From positions 1,736,001-1,800,000 of the forward strand of contig NZ_CP104144.1 of assembly GCF_025200715.1 (NCBI RefSeq): 64,000 nt of DNA, read 5' to 3'. This DNA comes from Rhizobium sullae. Its GTDB lineage: Bacteria > Pseudomonadota > Alphaproteobacteria > Rhizobiales > Rhizobiaceae. Positions 14,207 to 26,998 of this stretch are shown here, in pieces. Under the pieces are notes generated by a model. The model searched no databases. It was not told the DNA's origin and was given only the letters and a program-made list of their open reading frames with translations. Within the stretch, counting starts at the first letter, position 1, and every line of letters starts with the position of its first letter. The translations under genes and the position numbers were made by a program.

Positions 14207-14449
14207 ATGGCCGTCAACGTCAAAGTCGCCGAAGCAAAGACACATCTGTCGGAGCTGCTTTCCAAGGTGGAAGCCGGCGAAGAGGTCATCATCTCGCGCG
14301 GCAACACGCCTGTGGCCCGCCTCTCCCGCATTCGCCGCGAAAACGACGTTGATGCACTGATCGCCGAGATCAAGGCCCAACGCGCCGGCCGGCCGCACAC
14401 AACGCAGGATGAAATTCGTCAGTGGCGGGACGAAGGCCGCCGCTACTGA
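14207..14449 (+). CDS. vapB: type II antitoxin, Phd/YefM-like (VapB)
   Basis: 80 residues. The N-terminal Phd/YefM fold reads VKVAEAKTHLSELLSKVEAG, then EEVIISRGNTPVARL, the DNA-binding part. The C-terminal tail (AQRAGRPHTTQDEIRQWRDEG) would wrap the toxin. ATG at 14207 follows AGGGAG. The stop codon overlaps the toxin start (TGATG), so translation is coupled. It neutralises the PIN-domain RNase encoded next and represses the operon through the palindrome upstream. Confidence 0.87.
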   Translation: MAVNVKVAEAKTHLSELLSKVEAGEEVIISRGNTPVARLSRIRRENDVDALIAEIKAQRAGRPHTTQDEIRQWRDEGRRY

Positions 14450-14868
14450 TGTCGTTTATTCTCGACGCCTCCATTGCCGCAGCCTGGTTTCTCCCCGACG
14501 AACAGCACGAAGCCACCGATCAGCTGATGTCCAATCTGCGCTCGACAGTCGGCTTCGTGCCCAGTCTTTTTTGGTTCGAGACTCGCAATCTCTTTCTCAT
14601 GGCCGAACGACGCGGCCGACTGCGGCGAGGAGAAGCGCTGCTGGTAATGACCCAACTGCGAGCCCTATCGATCGAAGACGCCGGCTCGGGCGGTGACGGG
14701 CGGGTGCTCGAGCTGGCCAACCGGCACAGCCTGAGCGGCTATGATGCCAGCTATCTCGCATTGGCGCTGGCGCAGGGGATATCTTTGGCAACTGCAGACC
14801 GCAAGATGGCAGCCGCAGCTCGGATCGAAGGAGTGACTGTCCTTGGCCCGCTCGAGAACGAACATTAA
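14449..14868 (+). CDS. vapC: type II toxin, PIN-domain ribonuclease (VapC)
   Basis: 139 residues from ATG at 14449, overlapping the antitoxin stop. PIN-domain acidic residues are seen in FILDASIAAAWF (first Asp), FWFETRNLFL (Glu), LSGYDASYLALAL (Asp) and ATADRKM (Asp), the four-acid Mg site of VapC enzymes, which cut initiator tRNA or rRNA. The length is typical. The pair looks intact. Confidence 0.88.
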   Translation: MSFILDASIAAAWFLPDEQHEATDQLMSNLRSTVGFVPSLFWFETRNLFLMAERRGRLRRGEALLVMTQLRALSIEDAGSGGDGRVLELANRHSLSGYDASYLALALAQGISLATADRKMAAAARIEGVTVLGPLENEH

Positions 14869-14989: not shown

Positions 14990-15256
14990 TCATCGTTGTG
15001 CACCCGATGTGTCGATCTTTTCCGCAAGCCAGATCTTGATGAGCGACTGATAAGGAACGTCGCGCTTGCTGGCTGCGACCTTGATCCGCTCAAGCAGCGC
15101 ATTCGGTAGTCGTAGCGAGATCGATGTGGAGGATGGTTTCAGGTTCGGCAGACGAACACGCTCTGCCTTGCTCCAGTCGGTATGATCGTCGGAATCCTGG
15201 CTTTCCCAGAAGGCGCGTTCTTCTGCTTCCGTCTTGAACCCGAATTCCTCTGGCAC
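14990..15256 (-). CDS. orphan BrnA/CopG-type antitoxin
   Basis: 88 residues beginning at a GTG (15256). The front reads EEFGFKTEAEERAFWESQDS, then DHTDWSKAERVRLPNLKPS; the back is the ribbon-helix-helix ISLRLPNALLERIKVAASKR, then DVPYQSLIKIWLAEKI. This is the COG5304/BrnA-like pattern. In complete systems a BrnT toxin gene sits just upstream. Here the upstream 180 bp contain no toxin frame, only the sigma-54 control region of the next operon. It may be a solitary regulator or a remnant. The GTG has only a weak GGGA before it, so the exact start is uncertain. Confidence 0.72.
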   Translation of the reverse strand: MPEEFGFKTEAEERAFWESQDSDDHTDWSKAERVRLPNLKPSSTSISLRLPNALLERIKVAASKRDVPYQSLIKIWLAEKIDTSGAQR

Positions 15257-15335
15257 ATTCCCAATGACGTGAACGCCGGCACATAACCGAAATAGAGGAC
15301 TGATGATTTAAGTGGCGCAAGGCGCCCAAAGGATG

Positions 15336-15352
15336 TGCAAGTGCATGCACTT
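15336..15352. promoter_or_regulatory. palindrome upstream of the sigma-54 promoter, possible activator site
   Basis: AAGTGCATGCACTT (15339-15352) is a perfect 14-bp palindrome, and GTGCA / TGCAC arms also flank it with a 6-nt spacer. It sits about 60 bp upstream of the -24 element at 15411, an ordinary distance for an enhancer-binding protein. It shares the TGCA core with NtrC sites but not their full TGCACC-N5-GGTGCA layout, so the regulator is not assigned. Confidence 0.4.
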
Positions 15353-15410
15353 TCTGCGGCGGAGGAACTCCTGCCTCGATTAATTCACGCAAAATCAATT
15401 ACTTAAAGTT

Positions 15411-15426
15411 TGGCACGGCTTTTGCT
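15411..15426 (+). promoter_or_regulatory. sigma-54 (RpoN) promoter of the guanidine operon
   Basis: TGGCACG (15411-15417), four bases, then TTGCT (15422-15426): an exact match to the -24/-12 sigma-54 consensus TGGCACG-N4-TTGCW. A start of transcription about 12 nt downstream would fall just ahead of the riboswitch. Sigma-54 is the nitrogen-limitation sigma factor, which fits an operon that releases ammonium from guanidine. An ATP-dependent activator such as NtrC would be required. Confidence 0.8.
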
Positions 15427-15442
15427 TCTCAATCTGTAGAGT

Positions 15443-15546
15443 TGGTGGCTAGGGTTCCGGCGCTTCGACAAGCGTGCTGGTCCGAGAGCTGCCACCGGTT
15501 GGGGAGACATCCCGCCGGGCACGGCGGGACAAAAGCCCGGGAGACC
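15443..15546 (+). promoter_or_regulatory. guanidine-I (ykkC) riboswitch aptamer
   Basis: The conserved ykkC elements appear in order: CTAGGGTTCCG near the 5' side, CTGGTCCGAGAGCT after the first hairpin, then GGGAGAC and, at the 3' side, ACAAAAGCCCGGGAGA. This arrangement is characteristic of the guanidine-I class, an ON switch for guanidine export or degradation genes. The genes downstream (transporter, carboxyguanidine deiminase subunits, carboxylase, allophanate hydrolase) are the classic ykkC-controlled set. Ends are approximate to about 5 nt. Confidence 0.92.
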
Positions 15547-15555
15547 TCGTTAGCC

Positions 15556-15615
15556 AAGGGATTGGCGGCGCGATGGTCCATGCCGATCCCTTTTTGAAGA
15601 AAAGCAAAAAAGGGA
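15556..15615 (+). promoter_or_regulatory. riboswitch expression platform: mutually exclusive hairpins controlling the Shine-Dalgarno
   Basis: Two helices compete. Helix A pairs AAGGGATTGGC (15556-15566) with GCCGATCCCTT (15582-15592), 11 bp including one U-G. Helix B pairs TCCCTTTTT (15587-15595) with AAAAAGGGA (15607-15615), 9 bp, and buries the AGGGA that serves the ATG at 15622. Both need 15587-15592, so only one can form: A exposes the ribosome-binding site, B hides it. Helix B is not followed by a T-run, so control is translational rather than by termination. Which state guanidine favours is inferred (ON switch, so A). Confidence 0.7.
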
Positions 15616-15621
15616 ATGTCA

Positions 15622-16695
15622 ATGCAGACTTTTTCGACGATGCTCTCCATCACCGCGCTGGCGGCTTCGCTGGCCTTCGGTACGACATCAAACGCCTTCG
15701 CAGCACCGAAGACCGACTTCAAGGTCGCCTGGTCGATCTATGTCGGCTGGATGCCGTGGGGCTACGCGAACGATCATGGCATCGTCAAGAAATGGGCCGA
15801 CAAATACGGCATCAAGATCGAAGTGATCCAGTTCAACGACTACGTTGAATCGATGAACCAGTACACGGCCGGCGCCTTCGACGCGGTCACGCTCACCAAC
15901 ATGGACGGCCTCTCCATTCCAGCAGCTGGCGGCGTCGATACGACCGCCGTCATCGTCGGTGACTTCTCCAATGGCAATGACGCGGTGATTCTCAAGGACA
16001 AGGCCAGCCTTGCCGACGTGAAGGGCCAGAACGTCAACCTCGTCGAATTTTCCGTGTCACACTATCTGTTCGCCCGGGCACTCGAGAGCCTCAAGCTGAC
16101 CGAACAGGACGTGAAGATCGTCAACACATCGGATGCCGACATGGTCGCCGCCTACAAGACGGCGGATGTCACGGCGATCGTCACCTGGAACCCGCTCGTC
16201 GCGACCATTCTCGAAGATCCGACGGCCAAGAAGGTTTTCGACAGTGCGCAGATCCCCGGAGAGATCATTGACCTGATGGTCGCCAATTCCGGCGTGCTGA
16301 AGGACAATCCGAATTTCGGCAAGGCCCTCGCCGGGATCTGGTACGAAACCGCGGCGCTGATGACGGCAGACAATGATGAAGGCAAAGCAGCGCGCGAAGC
16401 AATGGGCTCCGCATCCGGCACCGATCTGAAGGGCTTCGAAGCCCAGATCGCCGCCACCAAGCTGTTCGACAAGCCGGCCGATGCGGTCGCCTTTACGGCA
16501 TCGCCGAGCCTGCCAAAGACGATGGATCTGGTGCGCAAATTCCTATTCGAAAAAGGCCTGCTCGGCAGCGGTGCCGCGTCCGCAGACGTCATCGGCATCG
16601 AAATGCCGGACGGCAAGGTTCTCGGCGACAGCGGCAACGTCAAGCTACGCTTCACGGAGACCTACATGAAGGCCGCCGCTGACGGTTCGCTCTGA
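15622..16695 (+). CDS. guanidine ABC transporter substrate-binding protein (nitrate/taurine-like family)
   Basis: 357 residues. ATG 15622 is chosen over ATG 15616 because AGGGA (15611-15615) is 6 nt from the former and touches the latter. A signal peptide ends TTSNAFA. The body is an NMT1/SsuA-like binding fold: FKVAWSIYVGWMPWGYANDHGIVKKW, ESMNQYTAGAFDAVTLTN, VWNP-like IVTWNPLVATIL. As the first gene after a guanidine-I riboswitch, and next to guanidine catabolism genes, its ligand is very probably guanidine. Older annotations call these urea-carboxylase-associated transporters. Confidence 0.87.
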   Translation: MQTFSTMLSITALAASLAFGTTSNAFAAPKTDFKVAWSIYVGWMPWGYANDHGIVKKWADKYGIKIEVIQFNDYVESMNQYTAGAFDAVTLTNMDGLSIPAAGGVDTTAVIVGDFSNGNDAVILKDKASLADVKGQNVNLVEFSVSHYLFARALESLKLTEQDVKIVNTSDADMVAAYKTADVTAIVTWNPLVATILEDPTAKKVFDSAQIPGEIIDLMVANSGVLKDNPNFGKALAGIWYETAALMTADNDEGKAAREAMGSASGTDLKGFEAQIAATKLFDKPADAVAFTASPSLPKTMDLVRKFLFEKGLLGSGAASADVIGIEMPDGKVLGDSGNVKLRFTETYMKAAADGSL

Positions 16696-16760: not shown

Positions 16761-17579
16761 ATGCGCTGGATCAACACCAGGCCGAGCCGGGGTGCACAAC
16801 TCACCTTGACGCTTCTGCCATTCGTGCTGCTGATTGCCGCCTATGGGGCGGGATCGATCGCGCGGCTGGCGGAAAATCCCAACGATAAGCTACTGCCCGG
16901 TCTCTCGGTGTTTGCCGATGCGATCAACCGGCTGGCCTTCCTACCGGATACGCGCACCGGCGACTACCTGCTGTGGTCTGATACCGTCGCTAGCCTGAGC
17001 CGGCTTTTCGCAGGCCTCGGGATTTCGACGGCAACGGCGCTGCTGATCGGCATGGCGATCGGCATGCTGCCCTATCTGCGTTCGCTGCTCGCGCCCTTCG
17101 CGGTCGTGATCTCCATGGTCCCGCCGCTGGCGCTGCTGCCCGTTCTTTTCATCGTCATGGGTCTTGGCGAAGCCTCGAAAATCGCACTGATCGTCATCGG
17201 CGTCGCGCCGACGATGATCCGTGACCTTGCCCTCAAGACGCTGGAACTGCCGCGCGAGCAGATCGTCAAGGCGGAAACGCTCGGAGGCTCGTCCTGGCAG
17301 ATTGCCCTACGCGTCGTGCTGCCGCAAATTCTGCCGCGCCTGATCACATGCCTCAGGTTGCAGTTGGGACCTGCCTGGCTGTTCCTCATTGCAGCGGAAG
17401 CGATTTCGTCAGACTCCGGGCTCGGCTATCGCATCTTCCTCGTCCGCCGTTATCTGTCGATGGATATCATCTTTCCCTATGTCGTCTGGATCACCCTGCT
17501 TGCCGTTCTGACCAACTTCGTCCTCGATCGGATCCGCATCGTCGTCTTCCCGTGGTCCGAGCTGGAGAAGCAGGGATGA
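16761..17579 (+). CDS. guanidine ABC transporter permease
   Basis: 272 residues with six hydrophobic segments, beginning LTLLPFVLLIAAYGAGSIA. The loop facing the ATPase reads LELPREQIVKAETLGGSSWQ, then IALRVVLPQ, the EAA-like motif of the nitrate/sulfonate/taurine (SsuC/TauC) branch. ATG 16761 has CGGAG 8 nt before; an ATG at 16756 lies in another frame. It overlaps the ATPase start by 4 bp (ATGA). It forms the inner-membrane channel of the riboswitch-controlled transporter. Confidence 0.87.
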   Translation: MRWINTRPSRGAQLTLTLLPFVLLIAAYGAGSIARLAENPNDKLLPGLSVFADAINRLAFLPDTRTGDYLLWSDTVASLSRLFAGLGISTATALLIGMAIGMLPYLRSLLAPFAVVISMVPPLALLPVLFIVMGLGEASKIALIVIGVAPTMIRDLALKTLELPREQIVKAETLGGSSWQIALRVVLPQILPRLITCLRLQLGPAWLFLIAAEAISSDSGLGYRIFLVRRYLSMDIIFPYVVWITLLAVLTNFVLDRIRIVVFPWSELEKQG

Positions 17580-18403
17580 GCGAACTGATCATCGACAACG
17601 TCTGGAAGGAATATGGCGACCAGATCGTGCTGGAGAACGTGTCGTTGACAGTCGCGTCCGGCGCCTTCGTCGCGCTCGTTGGCCCCTCCGGTTGCGGCAA
17701 GTCGACCTTCCTTCGCATGCTTCTTGGCCAGGAACGGGCGACCAGAGGCACGATCCTGTTGGACGGCGAGCCGCTGCCGCCCGAACCGGGTCCGGATCGC
17801 GGCGTCGTCTTCCAGCGCTATTCGGTGTTCCCGCACCTGACTGTGCTCGGCAATGTTCTGCTCGGCAAGGAACTGATATCCTCGCGATACAAGGCGAAGC
17901 TTTTCGGCGCAGCCCGGCGATCAGCCCTCGAGGAATCCCGGCAATTTATCGCGGAAGTCGGCCTTTCCGGCGCAGAAACCAAATATCCGGCGCAGCTTTC
18001 CGGCGGCATGCAGCAACGGCTGGCGCTGGCCCAGGCACTAATCATGAAACCGAAGGTTCTACTGCTCGACGAACCCTTCGGTGCGCTCGATCCCGGGATC
18101 CGCGCCGAAATCCACACGCTGATGAAGCGGCTCTGGAATGAAACGCAGATGACTGTTGTCATGGTCACGCACGACATGCGCGAGGCCTTCACACTCGCCA
18201 CCCGCGTCGTCGCCTTCGAGCGGCCACGCGACCGAGCGGAGGAAAAACAGCGCTACGGCGCGACCATCACCAAGGACATTGCCATTTGGCCGCCGCGCCG
18301 TGCGGGCGAGCCTTCACACTTTAGCCCTGACCGGGACGGCCCGGTTGTTTTGCAGGGCCCTCGCCGGGACGACCCGTCTTCCAGCCCGTCAGGAGAAAGA
18401 TAG
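17576..18403 (+). CDS. guanidine ABC transporter ATP-binding protein
   Basis: 275 residues. Walker A GPSGCGKST, Q-loop VVFQRYSVFPHLTVL, signature LSGGMQQRLALAQAL, Walker B VLLLDEPFGALDPG and H-loop VMVTHDMREAFTLA are all present. It belongs to the SsuB/TauB-like branch, with a C-terminal extension of about 50 residues. The start at 17576 overlaps the permease stop, and the next gene begins 2 bp after its stop, so the operon is tightly packed. Confidence 0.88.
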   Translation: MSELIIDNVWKEYGDQIVLENVSLTVASGAFVALVGPSGCGKSTFLRMLLGQERATRGTILLDGEPLPPEPGPDRGVVFQRYSVFPHLTVLGNVLLGKELISSRYKAKLFGAARRSALEESRQFIAEVGLSGAETKYPAQLSGGMQQRLALAQALIMKPKVLLLDEPFGALDPGIRAEIHTLMKRLWNETQMTVVMVTHDMREAFTLATRVVAFERPRDRAEEKQRYGATITKDIAIWPPRRAGEPSHFSPDRDGPVVLQGPRRDDPSSSPSGER

Positions 18404-18405
18404 CC

Positions 18406-19224
18406 ATGCACGTCCGACGTTCCGCAGAGGAAATCGCCGCCAACCGGCAACGCTACGAAGAACACCAGAGGAAGGGCTTGGAGTTCGCCCCCAAGGCGCT
18501 GCCCGTACCGAGCCCACTACCTGCGCCCGCAATCGAGGCTGGCCGCGTCATCCATCAGGAAACGATTCCGGGCGGCTGGTATTGGTCGACCCTGTTGAAG
18601 CGCGGCGAGGCGCTGCGGATCGATCAGCAGGAGGGCCTATCGACCGTCGCGCTGATCGCCTGGAACGCGGCCGACACCAGCGAAAGGCTCAATCTGGTCG
18701 ATACCGTCAAGGTTCAGTGGACGACCGCGCTCGGCAAGGGTCGGGTGATCTTCTCGGACATGGGCCGCGCAATGTTCTCGATGATCGAGGATAGCTCCGG
18801 CGCCCATGATTGCCTGATGGGCGGATCGACGGCCGCATCGAACGCCGCCAGATATCCGGGCGCAAATACCCGCAACACGCGCGACAACTTCATCCTCGCA
18901 GCCGGAAAGCTCGGTCTAGATCGACGCGATATTCCCGGCGTGCTCAATCTTTTCGCGCCTGTCCAAATCGATGATGCCGGCGGTTTCCACTGGCAAGGCA
19001 AGGCATCCAACGGCGGCGACTACGCCGAGTTGCGAGCCGAGATGGACCTGCTCGTCGGTCTCTCCAACTGCCCGCATCCGCTGGATCCCAATCCTGTGCA
19101 TGCGCCGGCACCGGTGACGGTCACCCGTTTCCGCGCCGCTGCGCCGGCAGCAGACGATCTTGCCCGCACCGCCACCGCCGAAGCCGTCCGCGGCTTCGAG
19201 AACAACGCCATGATGCAGGCTTGA
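18406..19224 (+). CDS. cgdA: carboxyguanidine deiminase subunit (urea amidolyase-associated protein 1, DUF1989)
   Basis: 272 residues of the UAAP1/DUF1989 type: an Arg/Glu-rich start (RRSAEEIAANRQRYEEHQRK), then VIHQETIPGGWYWSTLLKRGEALRI, GRVIFSDMGRAMFSMIEDSSGAHDC, NTRDNFILAAGKLGL and the Cys-containing VGLSNCPHPLDP. This protein and its neighbour were long annotated as urea-metabolism proteins. Published work on guanidine catabolism shows the pair to be a heteromeric deiminase converting carboxyguanidine to allophanate and ammonia. I assign A/B by gene order only; sequence alone does not settle the letter. Confidence 0.85.
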   Translation: MHVRRSAEEIAANRQRYEEHQRKGLEFAPKALPVPSPLPAPAIEAGRVIHQETIPGGWYWSTLLKRGEALRIDQQEGLSTVALIAWNAADTSERLNLVDTVKVQWTTALGKGRVIFSDMGRAMFSMIEDSSGAHDCLMGGSTAASNAARYPGANTRNTRDNFILAAGKLGLDRRDIPGVLNLFAPVQIDDAGGFHWQGKASNGGDYAELRAEMDLLVGLSNCPHPLDPNPVHAPAPVTVTRFRAAAPAADDLARTATAEAVRGFENNAMMQA

Positions 19225-19235
19225 GGAGGCCGACC

Positions 19236-19898
19236 ATGATCGATTTCATTCAGACCGACGCCTCGCGTACCGCCGAAAACGCAGCCCAGGATCATTTCAT
19301 CCCGGCCGAAGCGCCGTGGTCCGGCGTCGTGCGCAGGGGGCAAACGATCCGTATCGAGGACAGCTACGGCCAGCAGGCGATCGACACGCTGTTCTACAAG
19401 GCCGACGATTTCGCCGAACGCTATTCCAACCAGGACACGATGCGGGAACAGGGGGCAGCCTATGTCGGAACCGGAACTCGAATCATCTCCAACGAAGGCA
19501 ATGTCATGCTGAGGATGACGGCTGACAGTTGCGGCCGCCACGACACGTCGGCCGGCGCCTGCTCCTGCGAGAGCAACACCGTGCGCTTCGGCCACGGCAC
19601 CAAATATCTTCATGCCTGCCGCGACAATTTTTTGCTGGAGGTGATGAAGCATGGCATGAGCAAGCGCGACATCGTGCCCAACATCAACTTCTTCATGAAC
19701 GTGCCGATCAGCCCCGATGGCAAGATGACCATCGTCGATGGCATCTCCGCGCCTGGCGACTATGTGGAGCTGGTGGCCGAGATGGACGTGCTCTGCGTCA
19801 TTTCCAACTGCCCGCAAATCAACAATCCCTGCAACGGCTTTGATCCGACGCCGATCCGCGTGCTGATCTGGGACGCTACACCAGGTACCGTGGCCTGA
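19236..19898 (+). CDS. cgdB: carboxyguanidine deiminase subunit (urea amidolyase-associated protein 2, DUF1989)
   Basis: 220 residues from ATG 19236, which follows GAGGAGG by 6 nt and overrides earlier in-frame codons. The DUF1989 pattern parallels the previous gene: SGVVRRGQTIRIEDSYGQQAIDTL, DTMREQGAAYVGTG, CGRHDTSAGACSCESNTVRF (rich in His/Cys, probable metal site), CRDNFLLEVMKHGM and VISNCPQINNPCNGFDPTP. It partners the preceding subunit. It is 11 bp downstream of that gene and 2 bp upstream of the carboxylase. Confidence 0.85.
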   Translation: MIDFIQTDASRTAENAAQDHFIPAEAPWSGVVRRGQTIRIEDSYGQQAIDTLFYKADDFAERYSNQDTMREQGAAYVGTGTRIISNEGNVMLRMTADSCGRHDTSAGACSCESNTVRFGHGTKYLHACRDNFLLEVMKHGMSKRDIVPNINFFMNVPISPDGKMTIVDGISAPGDYVELVAEMDVLCVISNCPQINNPCNGFDPTPIRVLIWDATPGTVA

Positions 19899-19900
19899 GC

Positions 19901-22900
19901 ATGTTCAAGAAGGTCCTCATCGCCAACAGGGGCGAAATCGCCGTCCGGGTCATCCGGACATTGAAGACAATGGGCATCGCCTCCGTCGCCGTCTATTCCG
20001 ACGCCGACCGGTTCACCATGGCAACACGGCTCGCGGACGAAGCGGCGCGCCTGGGTCCGGCAGCGGCCACGGAAAGCTATCTGAACGTCGACGCCGTCAT
20101 CGCCGCCTGTAAGGCAACGGGCGCAGAGGCCGTGCATCCGGGCTATGGCTTCCTCTCGGAAAATATCGACTTTGCCGAGCGGCTCGCCGCCGAGGGCATC
20201 GTGTTCATCGGCCCGCGCCCGGAGCATCTTTCGGCTTTTGGCTTGAAACATACCGCACGCGAACTTGCACAGCGAAGCGGCGTGCCGCTTCTGCCGGGCA
20301 GCGGTCTGCTGGAAAGCTTGGAGATCGCGTTGACGACGGCCGAGACGATCGGCTATCCGGTCATGCTGAAATCGACTGCCGGCGGCGGCGGCATCGGCAT
20401 GCAGCTTTGCGCAGATCCGGCTTCACTCAAGACCTCCTTCGAAAGCGTACAGCGCACGGCGCGCGCCAGCTTCGGCGATGCCCGGGTGTATCTCGAGCGT
20501 TTCGTCGCCGACGCCCGCCATGTCGAAGTGCAGATCTTCGGCGACGGCAAGGGTAAGGTCGTGGCGCTCGGCGAACGGGATTGCTCGCTGCAGCGGCGCA
20601 ACCAGAAGGTCGTTGAAGAAACTCCGGCACCGGGCCTTTCGCCTGCAACACGCGCGCGGCTGCACAAGTCGGCAGTCGATCTGGGAAGCTCGGTGTCTTA
20701 TGCATCGGCCGGCACGGTCGAATTCATCTATGATCCGGCGCGAGGGGAATTCTACTTCCTCGAGGTCAATACGCGGCTACAGGTGGAGCATCCGGTAACC
20801 GAGGCCGTTTTCGGTATCGACCTCGTTGAATGGATGATCCGCCAGGCCGCGGGCGAGGATGTGCTTTCGGGTGCCGAAGCTCTGGCACCGAAAGGGGCGT
20901 CGATCGAAGTGCGCGTCTATGCCGAGATGCCGCACGCCGACTTCCGCCCGAGTGCCGGCTTGCTGACGGAGGTCGTGTTTCCCGCAAACCCTCGCATCGA
21001 CGGCTGGATCGAAACCGGCACGGAGGTGACGCCGTTCTACGATCCGATGCTTGCAAAAATCATCGTCGCGGCCGACGACCGTCCGGCGGCGATCGCAAAA
21101 CTTCAGGCAGCGCTTGCCGCGACGTCGATCACCGGGATCGAGACGAATCTCGACTACCTTCGCGCAATCGCCGCTTCCGATCTTCTCGCAAGCGGCAACG
21201 TCGCGACGACGGCTCTGCCCGATTTTGCCTTCGTGCCGGATGTCATCGAGGTTCTGTCCCCGGGCGCCCAGTCCAGTCTCCAGGAACTGCCCGGCCGCCT
21301 TGGCCTCTGGCATGTCGGCGTGCCGCCGAGCGGCCCGATGGACGAGCGATCCTTCCGCCATGCCAACCGTCTCGTCGGCAACGATGACACGACGGCTGCC
21401 TTGGAGCTGACCGTGTCCGGCCCGACACTGCGCTTTTACACCGATGTGGTGATTGCACTCGGCGGAGCGCACATGCCGATGACCTGTGATGGCCTTCGTC
21501 TGCCGCACGGCACGGGGGTGACCATTCGCGCCGGACAAGTGCTCTCCATCGGCGCCATCGACGGTCCCGGCCAGCGCGCCTATCTTGCGGTCGCGGGTGG
21601 CTTCGCGGCGGCGGTCGTGCTCGGCTCGCGGGCTACCTTCGATCTCGGCCAGTTCGGCGGCAACACGACCGGCACGCTGAAGACCGGTCATGTGCTGCAT
21701 CTTGCGCGGCAGACACCCGTCAAACCACCGCAGGCTGCTAACGAGCCCGCCGACCTCACGCGCGAATGGGACGTCGCCGTCCTCTACGGCCCTCATGGCG
21801 CACCGGATTTCTTTCGGCAGGACGATATCGACACCCTGTTTTCCACCGCCTACGAGGTGCATTTCAACAGCGCCCGCACCGGCGTCCGCCTCATCGGACC
21901 GGCACCAGAATGGGCACGCAGCGATGGCGGCGAGGCTGGGCTTCACCCCTCCAATCTGCACGACAACGCCTATGCTGTCGGCGCGATCGATTTCACAGGC
22001 GATATGCCGATCATTCTCGGTCCGGACGGCCCGAGCCTCGGCGGATTTGTCTGCCCGGCGGTGATTGCACGCGACGAGCAGTGGAAGATGGGTCAGTTCA
22101 AACCCGGTGATCGCATCCGCTTTCATGCGCTCGCTCGCCCGGACGATCCCGTCGCGGGCCCCGTTGTCCATCGGGTTTCGGATGTTGGCTCGGCAATCGT
22201 CGGAGCGCGGGACGAAGGCCCTGTCTGCGTGGTCTACCGCCGCCAGGGTGACGACAACCTGCTCGTCGAATATGGCCCGATGGCACTCGATATCGCGCTC
22301 AGGCTACGCGTGCACCTGCTGATGAAGGCCGTTGTGGAAGCGCGCCTTCCCGGCCTGATTGATCTCACCCCCGGCATCCGCTCGCTGCAGATCCACTACG
22401 ACGGGACAATGCTGACGCGAAAGCGTCTGCTTGGACTGTTACACGAGATCGAGACGACACTGCCGCCCGCGCAGGACGTGACGGTGCCGAGCCGCATCGT
22501 CCATCTGCCGCTGTCATGGAACGATCCGGATGCCGAGCTTGCCATGCGCAAGTATCAGGAACTGGTGCGCCCGAACGCGCCTTGGTGCCCGTCGAACATC
22601 GAGTTCATTCGCCGCATCAACGGATTGCCGGACGAACAAGCGGTCAAGGACATCGTCTTTGATGCCAGCTATCTCGTGCTGGGTCTTGGCGACGTCTATC
22701 TCGGCGCGCCGGTGGCAACACCAATCGATCCGCGCCACCGCCTTGTCACCACCAAGTACAACCCGGCCCGCACCTGGACCCCGGAAAATGCCGTAGGCAT
22801 CGGCGGCGCCTATATGTGCATCTACGGCATGGAAGGCCCAGGCGGCTATCAACTGTTCGGCCGCACCATCCAAGTCTGGAACACCTGGCGGCAGACGCCA

Positions 22901-23437
22901 GAATTCGCCAAGGGCAAGCCCTGGCTGCTCAACTTCTTCGACCAGATCCGCTTCTTCCCGGTCAGCCATGAGGAACTGACGGAGGCCCGCGCCATCTTCC
23001 CACATGGCGGTTATCCGGTGCGGATCGAGGAGACGGAATTCTCCTACGGAGCCTATGAGAAAGAACTGCACTCAAACGCTCAATCGATCGGCCGCTTCAA
23101 GGCGACGCAGCAGGCGGCTTTCGACGCCGAGCGGCAAAGCTGGATAGACGCTGGCCTCGACAGTTTCGTCAGCGACGAAGGCACGGGAGAAGGCCTTGAC
23201 GGCGATATTCCGGCTGACTGCTTCGGCGTTGCCAGCAGCGTTCCGGGCAATATCTGGAAACTGCTGGTCGAACCGGGTGCTTCCGTCACCGCCGGCGATA
23301 CGGTTGCCATCATCGAATCCATGAAAATGGAAATCAACGTCACTGCCCACGCGAACGGACGCGTCCGCGATCTGCGCGCCGGACCCGGGCGCAATGTTAA
23401 AGCCGGTGATATCATCGTCGTTCTGGAGAACTGCTGA
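19901..23437 (+). CDS. guanidine carboxylase (urea carboxylase family, biotin-dependent)
   Basis: 1178 residues in the usual order for the family. Biotin carboxylase comes first (residues 1-445: VLIANRGEIAVRVIRT, ATP-grasp loop KSTAGGGGIGMQ, EVNTRLQVEHPVTE). The KipA/KipI-like carboxyltransferase follows (about 455-1090: LPGRLGLWHVGVPPSGPMDER, KYNPARTWTPENAVGIGGAY, MEGPGGYQLFGRTIQ). The C-terminal biotinyl domain has IIESMKMEIN, with the biotin lysine at about 1142. It carboxylates guanidine (or, in true urea carboxylases, urea) using ATP and bicarbonate. The riboswitch and deiminase neighbours favour guanidine. There is no fused amidase; the hydrolase is separate, next door. Confidence 0.9.
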   Translation: MFKKVLIANRGEIAVRVIRTLKTMGIASVAVYSDADRFTMATRLADEAARLGPAAATESYLNVDAVIAACKATGAEAVHPGYGFLSENIDFAERLAAEGIVFIGPRPEHLSAFGLKHTARELAQRSGVPLLPGSGLLESLEIALTTAETIGYPVMLKSTAGGGGIGMQLCADPASLKTSFESVQRTARASFGDARVYLERFVADARHVEVQIFGDGKGKVVALGERDCSLQRRNQKVVEETPAPGLSPATRARLHKSAVDLGSSVSYASAGTVEFIYDPARGEFYFLEVNTRLQVEHPVTEAVFGIDLVEWMIRQAAGEDVLSGAEALAPKGASIEVRVYAEMPHADFRPSAGLLTEVVFPANPRIDGWIETGTEVTPFYDPMLAKIIVAADDRPAAIAKLQAALAATSITGIETNLDYLRAIAASDLLASGNVATTALPDFAFVPDVIEVLSPGAQSSLQELPGRLGLWHVGVPPSGPMDERSFRHANRLVGNDDTTAALELTVSGPTLRFYTDVVIALGGAHMPMTCDGLRLPHGTGVTIRAGQVLSIGAIDGPGQRAYLAVAGGFAAAVVLGSRATFDLGQFGGNTTGTLKTGHVLHLARQTPVKPPQAANEPADLTREWDVAVLYGPHGAPDFFRQDDIDTLFSTAYEVHFNSARTGVRLIGPAPEWARSDGGEAGLHPSNLHDNAYAVGAIDFTGDMPIILGPDGPSLGGFVCPAVIARDEQWKMGQFKPGDRIRFHALARPDDPVAGPVVHRVSDVGSAIVGARDEGPVCVVYRRQGDDNLLVEYGPMALDIALRLRVHLLMKAVVEARLPGLIDLTPGIRSLQIHYDGTMLTRKRLLGLLHEIETTLPPAQDVTVPSRIVHLPLSWNDPDAELAMRKYQELVRPNAPWCPSNIEFIRRINGLPDEQAVKDIVFDASYLVLGLGDVYLGAPVATPIDPRHRLVTTKYNPARTWTPENAVGIGGAYMCIYGMEGPGGYQLFGRTIQVWNTWRQTPEFAKGKPWLLNFFDQIRFFPVSHEELTEARAIFPHGGYPVRIEETEFSYGAYEKELHSNAQSIGRFKATQQAAFDAERQSWIDAGLDSFVSDEGTGEGLDGDIPADCFGVASSVPGNIWKLLVEPGASVTAGDTVAIIESMKMEINVTAHANGRVRDLRAGPGRNVKAGDIIVVLENC

Positions 23438-23438
23438 C

Positions 23439-25244
23439 ATGCTGCCGACAATTCTCGACCTCTCAACCGTTCGTGCTGCCTATCAATCCGGCCTGACGCC
23501 GCTCGATCTCGTTGAAGAGGTGATCAAGCGCCGCGCCGCCTCCAGGGATCCGGCGATCTTCATCACCGCCACGCCGGAGGAGGATTTGCGCTCTGCTGCC
23601 CGCGACCTGATGGCGCGCGCGCCCGAGCCAAACAGCTTGGCCCTCTGGGGTATCCCCTTCGCAGTAAAGGACAATATCGACGCCGCTGGCCTGCCAACCA
23701 CAGCCGCCTGCCCGGCCTTTGCCTATGAGCCGGCTGCGGATTCAACCGTGGTCCAGCGCCTCAAGGCGGCAGGCGCTATAGTCATCGGCAAGACCAACCT
23801 CGACCAATTCGCGACCGGGCTCAATGGCACGCGCTCTCCCCATGGCGCACCGCGCTCCGTCTTCGACCCGGCTTATGTGTCGGGCGGTTCGAGCTCAGGT
23901 TCGGCGGTCGCGGTCGCCTCCGGCCTTGCGACCTTCGCGCTCGGCACGGACACGGCCGGGTCCGGTCGCGTACCCGCCGCCTTCAACAATCTTGTCGGCA
24001 TCAAGCCGACCCCTGGGCTTGTGCCGAACGTCGGCGTCGTTCCAGCCTGCCGCAGCGTGGACGTGGTCACCGTGTTTGCCGCCACGGTTGGCGATGGTGT
24101 CGCGATCCGCAAAGTGATGGAAGGCTACGACGCAACCGATCCCTTCTCGCGTCACGCCGTGCCCGCAGTCCTCCCCGCCACCGGCTTGCGGATTGGGGTG
24201 TTGGAGTGCACCGAGCGAGAATTCTTCGGAAACGGGGATATCGAGGCGCTTTATGGTACGGCGATCGAGTGCGCGAAATCACTTGGCGCGACCATTGTGC
24301 CCTTCGATTATGCGCCGTTCCGGCAGGCGGCGGAACTTCTTTACAATGGCCCGTGGGTCGCCGAACGATTGGCAGCGGTCAAGGACTTCCTGACCAGCAA
24401 CGCGGATGATTTCGACCCGACGGTTCGCACCATCATCGAAGGCGCGAAGGCCTATGATGCCGTCGCTGCCTTCGAGGGTAAATACAAACTCGAAGCGCTG
24501 CGGCAAAAGACGAAGGCCGAGTGGACGAAGGTGGACATCCTGTTGCTGCCGACCGCGCCCACAACTTACACGGTCGAGGAGATGCTGGCCGATCCGATCG
24601 TGAAGAATGGCCATTTCGGGCGCTACACGAATTTCGTCAATCTCTACGACTATGCCGCAATCGCCATTCCGGCGGGCTTCGGGCACAATGGTCTGCCTGG
24701 CGGCGTGACGCTGATCGGCCCGACATTCACGGATGATGCACTCGCCCCGTTTGCCGACGCCATGCACCGGGCGCTTGGGGCCGGCATGGGCAAGGACAAG
24801 AAGGCATCGCTCCCAGAAGAAAGCCGGGTTGCACCGCTTGACGACGGCTTTGTTCCGATCGCTGTCGTCGGCGCCCATTTGACCGGCATGCCACTCAACC
24901 ACGAACTCACCGGACCGGGTGGATATCGCCTGAAAACCTGCCGCACAGCCGGTGACTACAGGCTCTTCGTGCTGCCGAACACTGTACCGCCAAAACCTGG
25001 CCTCATCCGCGAACCCGGTTTCGCCGGCAACGGGCTCGAGGTCGAAGTCTGGGCGCTTCCACCCGCAGCCTTCGGCAACTTCGTCCAGAAAATTCCGGGG
25101 CCGCTCGGCATTGGAAAGGTAACTCTCGAAGATGGCAGCAGCATCTCAGGTTTTCTCTGTGAGGCTTATGCCGTCGCAGACGCCGAGGAAGTGACCGCGC
25201 TCGGCGGATGGCGGGCTTACGTCGGGACGCAAATGGCAAGCTAA
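23439..25244 (+). CDS. atzF: allophanate hydrolase
   Basis: 601 residues. The amidase-signature domain occupies about 1-440 with the Ser-cisSer-Lys triad visible: Lys77 in FAVKDNID, cis-Ser151 in VSGGSSSGSAVAVA, Ser175 in GTDTAGSGRVPAA. The C-terminal roughly 150 residues (VAVVGAHLTGMPLNHEL-like IAVVGAHLTGMPLNHELTG onward) form the allophanate-hydrolase C-domain, which completes decarboxylation of the intermediate. It converts allophanate to ammonium and CO2, the last step of guanidine breakdown. ATG 23439 is 1 bp after the carboxylase stop. Confidence 0.92.
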   Translation: MLPTILDLSTVRAAYQSGLTPLDLVEEVIKRRAASRDPAIFITATPEEDLRSAARDLMARAPEPNSLALWGIPFAVKDNIDAAGLPTTAACPAFAYEPAADSTVVQRLKAAGAIVIGKTNLDQFATGLNGTRSPHGAPRSVFDPAYVSGGSSSGSAVAVASGLATFALGTDTAGSGRVPAAFNNLVGIKPTPGLVPNVGVVPACRSVDVVTVFAATVGDGVAIRKVMEGYDATDPFSRHAVPAVLPATGLRIGVLECTEREFFGNGDIEALYGTAIECAKSLGATIVPFDYAPFRQAAELLYNGPWVAERLAAVKDFLTSNADDFDPTVRTIIEGAKAYDAVAAFEGKYKLEALRQKTKAEWTKVDILLLPTAPTTYTVEEMLADPIVKNGHFGRYTNFVNLYDYAAIAIPAGFGHNGLPGGVTLIGPTFTDDALAPFADAMHRALGAGMGKDKKASLPEESRVAPLDDGFVPIAVVGAHLTGMPLNHELTGPGGYRLKTCRTAGDYRLFVLPNTVPPKPGLIREPGFAGNGLEVEVWALPPAAFGNFVQKIPGPLGIGKVTLEDGSSISGFLCEAYAVADAEEVTALGGWRAYVGTQMAS

Positions 25245-25888: not shown

Positions 25889-26998
25889 TTAGATTTTTGC
25901 TGTGGGAGCGACCTCCTGCCCGATCGCCCACAGGAACGCTGCCATTTCTCTCGCAATGGCGGTGACCGCGACGACCTTCGGCTTGCCGGCCGCCATCAGC
26001 CTGCGATAGCGCGCGCAAAGCCTCACCTGACCTTTCCAAGCAATCTCGCGAACCGTCTTTGGCAATCCCTCCAGCCGCGCCTGGATCCTCGAGCTTACGC
26101 GAGCCGGGAAGCGATATGTCCAGGCGCCTTCGATGAGGACCCGACGCGCCCTTGTGTTGCCTGCCTTGGTGATCCCACCACGTTTGACCCGTTCGCCGGT
26201 TGAGCTTTCCGATGGCACGAGACCGAGATACGCCATCAGCTGGCGAGGATTATCAAAGCGCCGGACATCGCCGATTTCGACGACAAAGGTGACCGCGGTC
26301 ATGAACGCAACGCCGCGCATCGCCTGGTAGGCGGCCACAACCGGGGCCATCGACCAGGATGCCGCGGTCTCGACCACCAGCTTGGTCAACCTGTCCAGAC
26401 GCACGCCGGCATCCTCGATGGCTTGGCAATATTCCGCCAACAGGATGTGGTGGGCGGGATGATCGAAGGCTTGGCACGCCAGCCATCTTTTATGGGCGCG
26501 CGTCCATGGTTTGCGGCCGGTATAGATCCTGCCATGACGCAACAAGAAAGACTGAAGTTGCTGACGCGCCTGCTTCAGCGCGTCGTTGGCAGCTTCCCGG
26601 GCCCGCACCAGGTCGCGGATCGCCTCATGGCCTTCATCCGGAACCCAGACCGCGGTCAGTTCACCCGCCCGGTGCAGGCGCGCCAGGCTTACGGCATCGC
26701 GGCGGTTGGTCTTCACCCGGTCGCCTGCACGCCTGGGCACCAGCGACGGCGCCACCACCACGCAGTCATGCCCCAGTTCAACAATCTGGCGGTAAAGACC
26801 GTAACCGGTCGGGCCGGCCTCATAACAAAAACGAAGCTTGGCTCCACGCTTGGAAAGCTTGGCGACCATCGACGCCGGCTCCGACGAGATATCGCCGAAA
26901 AACCGCACCTCGCCGTTACGACCGCCATCGGCAACCGCCACTGAAATCTTCAGCTTCGACGTATCCAAGCCGATGAAAAGTACGCTATTCTCTTTCAT
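25889..26998 (-). mobile_element. IS110-family transposase (recombinase) gene of an insertion sequence
   Basis: 369 residues. The N-terminal RuvC-like DEDD domain reads FIGLDTSKLKISVAVADGG (first Asp), RFCYEAGPTGYGLYR (Glu), then KTNRRDAVSLARLHRAGEL (Asp pair). The C-terminal transposase_20 domain has AMRGVAFMTAVTFVVEIGDV and YLGLVPSESSTGERVKRG, containing the catalytic Ser region, then ITKAGNTRARRVLIEGAW. The gene looks intact. IS110 elements lack clear inverted repeats and use a bridge RNA from a non-coding end, so I do not fix the element's borders. Non-coding flanks are 25607-25888 and 26999 to about 27110. Confidence 0.9.

Follow-up and report, generated by a model that had tools for sequence, protein, structure and literature searches.

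A consensus sigma-54 promoter directly ahead of a predicted guanidine-I riboswitch in a guanidine-assimilation operon of Rhizobium sullae, and recurrence of the pairing among Pseudomonadota

It is likely that, in a guanidine-assimilation operon of Rhizobium sullae analysed within a 64,000-nucleotide stretch of DNA (the window), the control region joins sigma-54 initiation, probably under NtrC, and riboswitch control in series. The underlying architecture of promoter and aptamer is real, recurrent and non-random, and in the samples surveyed guanidine-I riboswitches that precede import and degradation genes as a rule show the pairing. From the sequence we strongly infer that such a region would function as an AND gate for nitrogen shortage and guanidine. 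A sequence-only reading of the window had proposed the same gate; its two-input architecture is strongly supported by comparison, while its details concerning a palindrome and translation came out weaker.

The promoter was found exactly where, and with the sequence with which, it had first been read: TGGCACGGCTTTTGCT at 15411–15426 is an exact match to the sigma-54 consensus, with GG at -24, GC at -12, the fixed spacing and the TGGCAYR-N4-TTGCW context. Within the 64-kb window there is a single exact TGGCACGNNNNTTGCW, versus a mean of 0.02 in shuffled windows; with one mismatch allowed in the pattern, 0.79 occurrences would be expected by chance. Because the GC box is placed at -12 relative to the start in the accessible text of PMC4842269, and the -12 C is nucleotide 15425, transcription would start at ∼15437, 1 base ahead of the first position of the RF00442 model, and the RNA would therefore begin with the aptamer. 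The initial description had the promoter ending about 17 nt before the first conserved aptamer bases; the adjacency holds, and the geometry is tighter, with the predicted +1 directly abutting the aptamer. The check with the ykkC-I covariance model suggested by the sequence-only reading was run and gave a full-length match (model positions 1–107) of 83.3 bits, above the gathering score of 63; the 7.6-Mb genome contained no other RF00442 match at E ≤ 0.001. The element precedes guanidine-related genes (matches to TIGR03427, PF09347, TIGR02712 and TIGR02713) and is a predicted riboswitch that would bind guanidine and switch.

Table 1. Features of the control region and operon (window coordinates)
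Feature	Position	Strand	Details
Candidate NtrC-type activator dyad CGCCCAAAGGATGTGCA (CGC-N11-GCA)	15323–15339	+	Centre ∼80 bp upstream of -24; imperfect
Palindrome AAGTGCATGCACTT of the sequence-only reading	15339–15352		Adjoins dyad; core GTGCATGCAC
Sigma-54 (RpoN) promoter, -24 TGGCACG / -12 TTGCT	15411–15426	+	Exact consensus match
Predicted transcription start	15437	+	12 nt after -12 C (15425)
Guanidine-I (ykkC) riboswitch aptamer (predicted)	15438–15545	+	RF00442, 83.3 bits (gathering score 63)
Hairpin then U5, possible intrinsic terminator of riboswitch platform	15556–15595	+	Stretch 15546–15600 folds at -20.4 kcal/mol
Purine-rich ribosome-binding region AAAAAGGG	15607–15614	+	Complementary to CCCTTTTT at 15588–15595
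ABC importer substrate-binding protein	15622–16695	+	TIGR03427, 546 bits; scanned from ORF start 15616, start 15622 our choice
ABC importer permease	16761–17579	+	PF00528
ABC importer ATPase	17576–18403	+	PF00005; start placed by domain position
Guanidine-II-like element inside 3′ coding end of ATPase gene	18328–18377	+	RF01068, 29.5 bits, E 0.0036 (4-kb search)
DUF1989 protein, UAAP1 type, carboxyguanidine deiminase subunit-like	18406–19224	+	PF09347, TIGR03425
DUF1989 protein, UAAP2 type, carboxyguanidine deiminase subunit-like	19221–19898	+	PF09347, TIGR03424
Urea carboxylase family enzyme	19901–23437	+	TIGR02712, 1782.7 bits
Allophanate hydrolase	23394–25244	+	TIGR02713, 767.3 bits; start approximate

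The DUF1989 family, to which two of the operon's products belong, we take to be COG3665. Residue 697 of the carboxylase is an aspartate and was aligned to N1330 of the yeast urea amidolyase 5i8i, presumably the substrate-specificity position. The accessible portion of a 2025 review ascribes Asp to guanidine carboxylases and Asn to urea carboxylases (PMC12186494), and by its active-site Asp the enzyme is predicted to be a guanidine carboxylase. In the same portion, guanidine-I operons with guanidine carboxylase, carboxyguanidine deiminase and allophanate hydrolase are described, the aptamer family and gene kinds being those found here, and the available part of PMC11410670 has CgdA and CgdB falling in PF09347. 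Upstream of the operon, a PIN-domain protein (PF01850) is encoded at 14422–14868 (+ strand) and a CopG-type antitoxin (PF12441) at 14990–15256 (- strand), the latter divergent from the operon; an IS110-family transposase (25889–26998, - strand) is encoded just downstream.

Recurrence was surveyed with RF00442 in 394 genomes taken to be Rhizobiaceae (57 over the cut-off, 60 loci) and 398 taken to be Pseudomonadota (41 over the cut-off, 55 loci); matches under the Rfam cut-off (12 and 3, respectively) were left out. With 6 loci shared, the surveys gave 109 distinct guanidine-I loci. Sigma-54 sites were scored on our own scale (maximum 16.5), with a threshold of 14.5 set after the scores were seen. 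This survey of ykkC loci, likewise suggested at the outset, found a site scoring ≥14.5 within 150 nt upstream in 94 of the 109 (family survey, 55/60; phylum survey, 45/55), the loci being related by descent and the counts not independent events. A score of at least 15 was reached by 90 loci and of at least 14 by 95; 15 scored below 14.5. By comparison, 1.8% of dinucleotide shuffles reached 14.5 and 0.8% reached 15, and at ≥14.5 the control windows in the same loci gave 6/392 upstream and 22/1535 downstream. Read on the opposite strand, 1 of the 109 upstream stretches reached 14.5.

When named genomes were scanned for TGGC-N7-TTGC with the aptamer core downstream, at least 120 matches in at least 118 stretches were returned. 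Among the 120 matches listed, 97 passed a strict aptamer-motif rule and 22 more were aptamers by eye; the locus end cuts the aptamer of L055, and L082 was rejected as a chance match, not an aptamer. The positions left free by the pattern followed the sigma-54 consensus (A in 115, Y in 118 and R in 116 of the 120 listed), and carriers among the listed matches included Rhizobium, Mesorhizobium, Bradyrhizobium, Devosia, Azospirillum, Acinetobacter and Solimonas. Two leader geometries were seen among the 94 scored sites. In 58, all from loci of the window's own class, the -12 C lay 11–18 nt before the aptamer (mode 13), so that the start would coincide with the aptamer's first bases (short-leader loci). 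The other 36, outside that class, had the -12 C 35–85 nt before the aptamer (long-leader loci) and are probably from beta- and gammaproteobacteria. A binding-protein homologue lay within 800 nt downstream in 81 of the 95 loci scoring ≥14, and the remaining 14 had homologues of the importer or the enzymes, those in L170 and L197 being weak. Homologues of the operon proteins still followed 12 of the 14 loci below 14, and therefore other promoters can serve; L173 and L205 had no such homologues, L173 having a ureohydrolase-like ORF by eye.

How the aptamer would act on expression was considered for the leader between aptamer and first gene, using hand-picked rhizobial-type loci as the related leaders for comparison. 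Hairpins near-identical to that at 15556–15595 were present in related leaders, with one compensatory change (by eye) in L181. A simple terminator scan admitting loops of 3–8 only gave no match there, and probably missed the hairpin through this loop limit; no competing antiterminator for it was identified in the window leader. We consider it more likely that guanidine acts on transcription termination in this leader than on translation. Translation control, in which the CCCUUUUU strand would pair with the AAAAAGGG region unless the 15556–15592 hairpin forms and frees the start site, is possible though doubtful. At least 6 complementary bases between the hairpin 3′ strand or U-tract and the ribosome-binding region were counted in 21 of 26 hand-picked related leaders; L016, L019 and L020, whose U-tract is interrupted, had 5 nt. 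A hairpin of ≤ -10 kcal/mol ahead of a U-tract (our own rule) occurred in only 39 of the 109 leaders, for which reason the terminator was dropped as a general rule for guanidine-I leaders. These counts speak for translation control; however, A/U-rich complementarity arises easily, the window hairpin and U-tract have a good intrinsic terminator form, and guanidine-I switches are described in the accessible part of PMC11410670 as permitting transcription only with guanidine. As to the original proposal that guanidine gates translation, the hairpin and U-tract suggest that it may act on termination instead, although the U-tract is also complementary to the ribosome-binding region.

For the activator, inverted repeats of trimers (gaps 0–17) were counted upstream of the promoters in 135 of 155 sequences, those ≥70% identical over 110 nt having been dropped; 21 Acinetobacter loci with a different upstream region were left out, and dyads seen at least 8 times were considered. 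The sequences were mostly from short-leader loci, with some from outside the alphaproteobacteria. TGC-N11-GCA was the top enriched dyad (55/135 versus 11.6 expected), and 38 of its 64 occurrences were centred 66–100 bp before the -24 element. In the text available of a 2023 paper, the same motif is named as that of NtrC in Sinorhizobium meliloti, with the dyad geometry of the enriched motif, and is stated to be recognisable at promoters that NtrC activates, glnII among them; the case differs from ours in that it was studied at an NtrC-repressed sRNA promoter without a sigma-54 signature (PMC10746234). The dyad of the window shares its position and 17-bp geometry with dyads in several rhizobial relatives and is not significant alone, 8 of 40 shuffles scoring as high; among the relatives, the upstream sequence of R. 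sullae locus L098 almost matches that of the window. As to the palindrome read as lying where an activator would bind, it is present but not general: among 36 hand-picked rhizobial-type upstream sequences, which include near-duplicates, only 10 have its core.

The canonical NtrC consensus was set aside as the short-leader activator site, since the box showed no enrichment in these loci (2/58 at ≥8.5) and the dyad count gave TGC-N11-GCA. In the long-leader loci, the canonical box reached a score of ≥8.5 in 18/36 versus 1.7% of shuffles, and GCAC-N7-GTGC was found in 10/36 versus 0.1 expected. The R. sullae genome itself contains ntrC (TIGR01818, 698.5 bits versus a cut-off of 558.6). Motif and gene content together suggest that the activator is probably NtrC. 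A search of the genome for the dyad together with a sigma-54 promoter gave 28 matches versus 8 for the reversed pattern and was set aside as evidence. That the promoter is sigma-54-dependent and answers to some other enhancer-binding protein with another physiological input is unlikely: seven further ntrC-model matches in the genome reach well beyond the receiver domain, the window dyad is imperfect and the Acinetobacter loci have repeats of another kind just upstream of -24, but the dyad with the highest enrichment is spaced as for NtrC, the long-leader loci are enriched in canonical NtrC boxes and the operon's substrate supplies nitrogen. The Acinetobacter repeats, of the GTATTAC/GTAATAC type, were observed at most ∼40 bp upstream of -24 in most of the 21 loci (e.g. 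L032, L035, L087, L097, L100 and L136) and are perhaps a further regulator site.

A chance sigma-54 match, with the operon transcribed from an ordinary sigma-70-type promoter, is highly improbable, for although consensus matches alone prove nothing and 15/109 loci lack a site, the site recurs at a narrow distance with constrained unspecified bases, and a simple scan of 15200–15700 found no sigma-70-like site. The sigma factor itself is encoded in the R. sullae genome (G000; two PF04552 matches), and its DNA-binding domain was found in 89 of the 92 genomes having an over-cutoff guanidine-I locus. Both rpoN and the promoter were absent from G621 and G718; in G086, a 380-contig assembly, no rpoN was detected and the promoter was kept. 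The association between rpoN and promoter gave Fisher p values of 0.04 at a threshold of 14 and 0.05 at 14.5, and the joint absence is suggestive only. A split rpoN match over two open frames was also observed in G442 (C1:1827989–1828464), whose guanidine-I locus L172 is without a sigma-54 site; the split may be a real loss or an assembly error.

Guanidine-II riboswitches were sought in a phylum-level sample of 398 genomes, and 30 returned loci were examined. None of these 30 had a sigma-54 site at ≥14.5, and the four that reached 14.0 were without the -12 GC, giving 4/30 at a threshold of 14 versus 95/109 for guanidine-I. Ten of the 30 sit among guanidine-operon homologues; in 12 of the 20 others the first ORFs were inspected, and all 12 had an SMR-like (exporter-like) ORF, the six that were scored all being over the SugE cut-off. 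The contrast between guanidine-I and guanidine-II loci therefore indicates that the sigma-54 link goes with import/degradation operons, not with guanidine sensing as such.

In the mechanism we propose, nitrogen limitation would lead an enhancer-binding protein, most likely phosphorylated NtrC near 15323–15339, to activate sigma-54 RNA polymerase at 15411–15426. By the computed geometry, the transcript would start at ∼15437 with the aptamer made first. Without guanidine the leader would be shut off, more likely by the 15556–15595 hairpin and U-tract than by a hidden ribosome-binding site; with guanidine bound, expression would run on into the importer and degradation genes. The Klebsiella oxytoca nas operon, according to the accessible parts of PMC5424462 and PMC7496416, combines Ntr control with NasR antitermination of its leader. 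As there, a nitrogen-source operon would be placed under general nitrogen control and substrate control of the leader in series; unlike there, where nitrate is sensed by a leader-binding protein, NasR, an RNA aptamer would here sense guanidine directly. The system of the window could thus be viewed as an RNA analogue of Klebsiella nas control.

In searches of open full-text literature, no report linking sigma-54 or NtrC to a guanidine riboswitch was recognised, and the novelty of the link is provisional. The accessible text of PMC12186494 has no 'sigma', and single matches to 'Ntr' and 'promoter' fall in its reference list. Sigma-54 control of 102 COG3665 genes, 59% of them called urea carboxylase, is predicted in PMC12316311, the main text of which has no 'guanidine' and a single 'riboswitch' in a reference title. 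The operon gene names were not found in the nitrogen-response papers searched. PMC8066629, which mentions guanidine, riboswitch and rpoN, was rejected as a prior link, guanidine being there only an RNA-purification contaminant.

What guanidine means for bacterial physiology is described as elusive in the 2025 review (PMC12186494). If proteobacterial guanidine-I catabolic operons mostly lie behind nitrogen-type promoters, and the sampled exporter riboswitches do not, guanidine would be met as food and not only as poison. We consider it fairly likely that the guanidine-I import/degradation riboswitches of Pseudomonadota form a fixed part of the Ntr/sigma-54 regulon, with promoter and aptamer travelling as one cassette and the alphaproteobacterial RNA starting at the aptamer's first bases; free guanidine would thus be read there as a nitrogen source for shortage only, and exporter riboswitches would stand outside. 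Such a natural two-input gate, in which riboswitch control would follow sigma-54 initiation, is directly testable, and predicts that these operons would be little expressed in laboratory media rich in ammonium, even when guanidine is present.

Two further RNA elements were observed. The guanidine-II-like element in the window falls short of the RF01068 gathering score of 32, whereas among 16 hand-picked related loci 8 had an RF01068 element over the cut-off. Such an aptamer, lying within the 3′ end of the ATPase coding sequence and a short way ahead of the next gene, was seen in the window and in 8 of 9 relatives examined (L176, L178, L179, L182, L183, L184, L198 and L226; absent from L181), being under the Rfam cut-off in the window and L198. 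The operon may accordingly combine two classes of guanidine riboswitch, of which one would also be translated into a peptide tail. A P0 helix, between the transcript's first bases and the aptamer 3′ flank, was dropped for the window, being weak in its own group. Across 58 loci, 50% had at least 5 Watson–Crick pairs versus 33% (maximum 41%) with swapped partners, and the pairing was clear in the GTGCAG/CTGCAC group. In L171, L180, L186, L195, L196, L198, L199, L201–L203 and L221, the transcript's first 6–8 bases, counted from the predicted start, could pair with the bases just 3′ of the aptamer, the outer pair being C-G in some and T-A in others, and this pairing is a possible extra closing helix that would begin at the start site.
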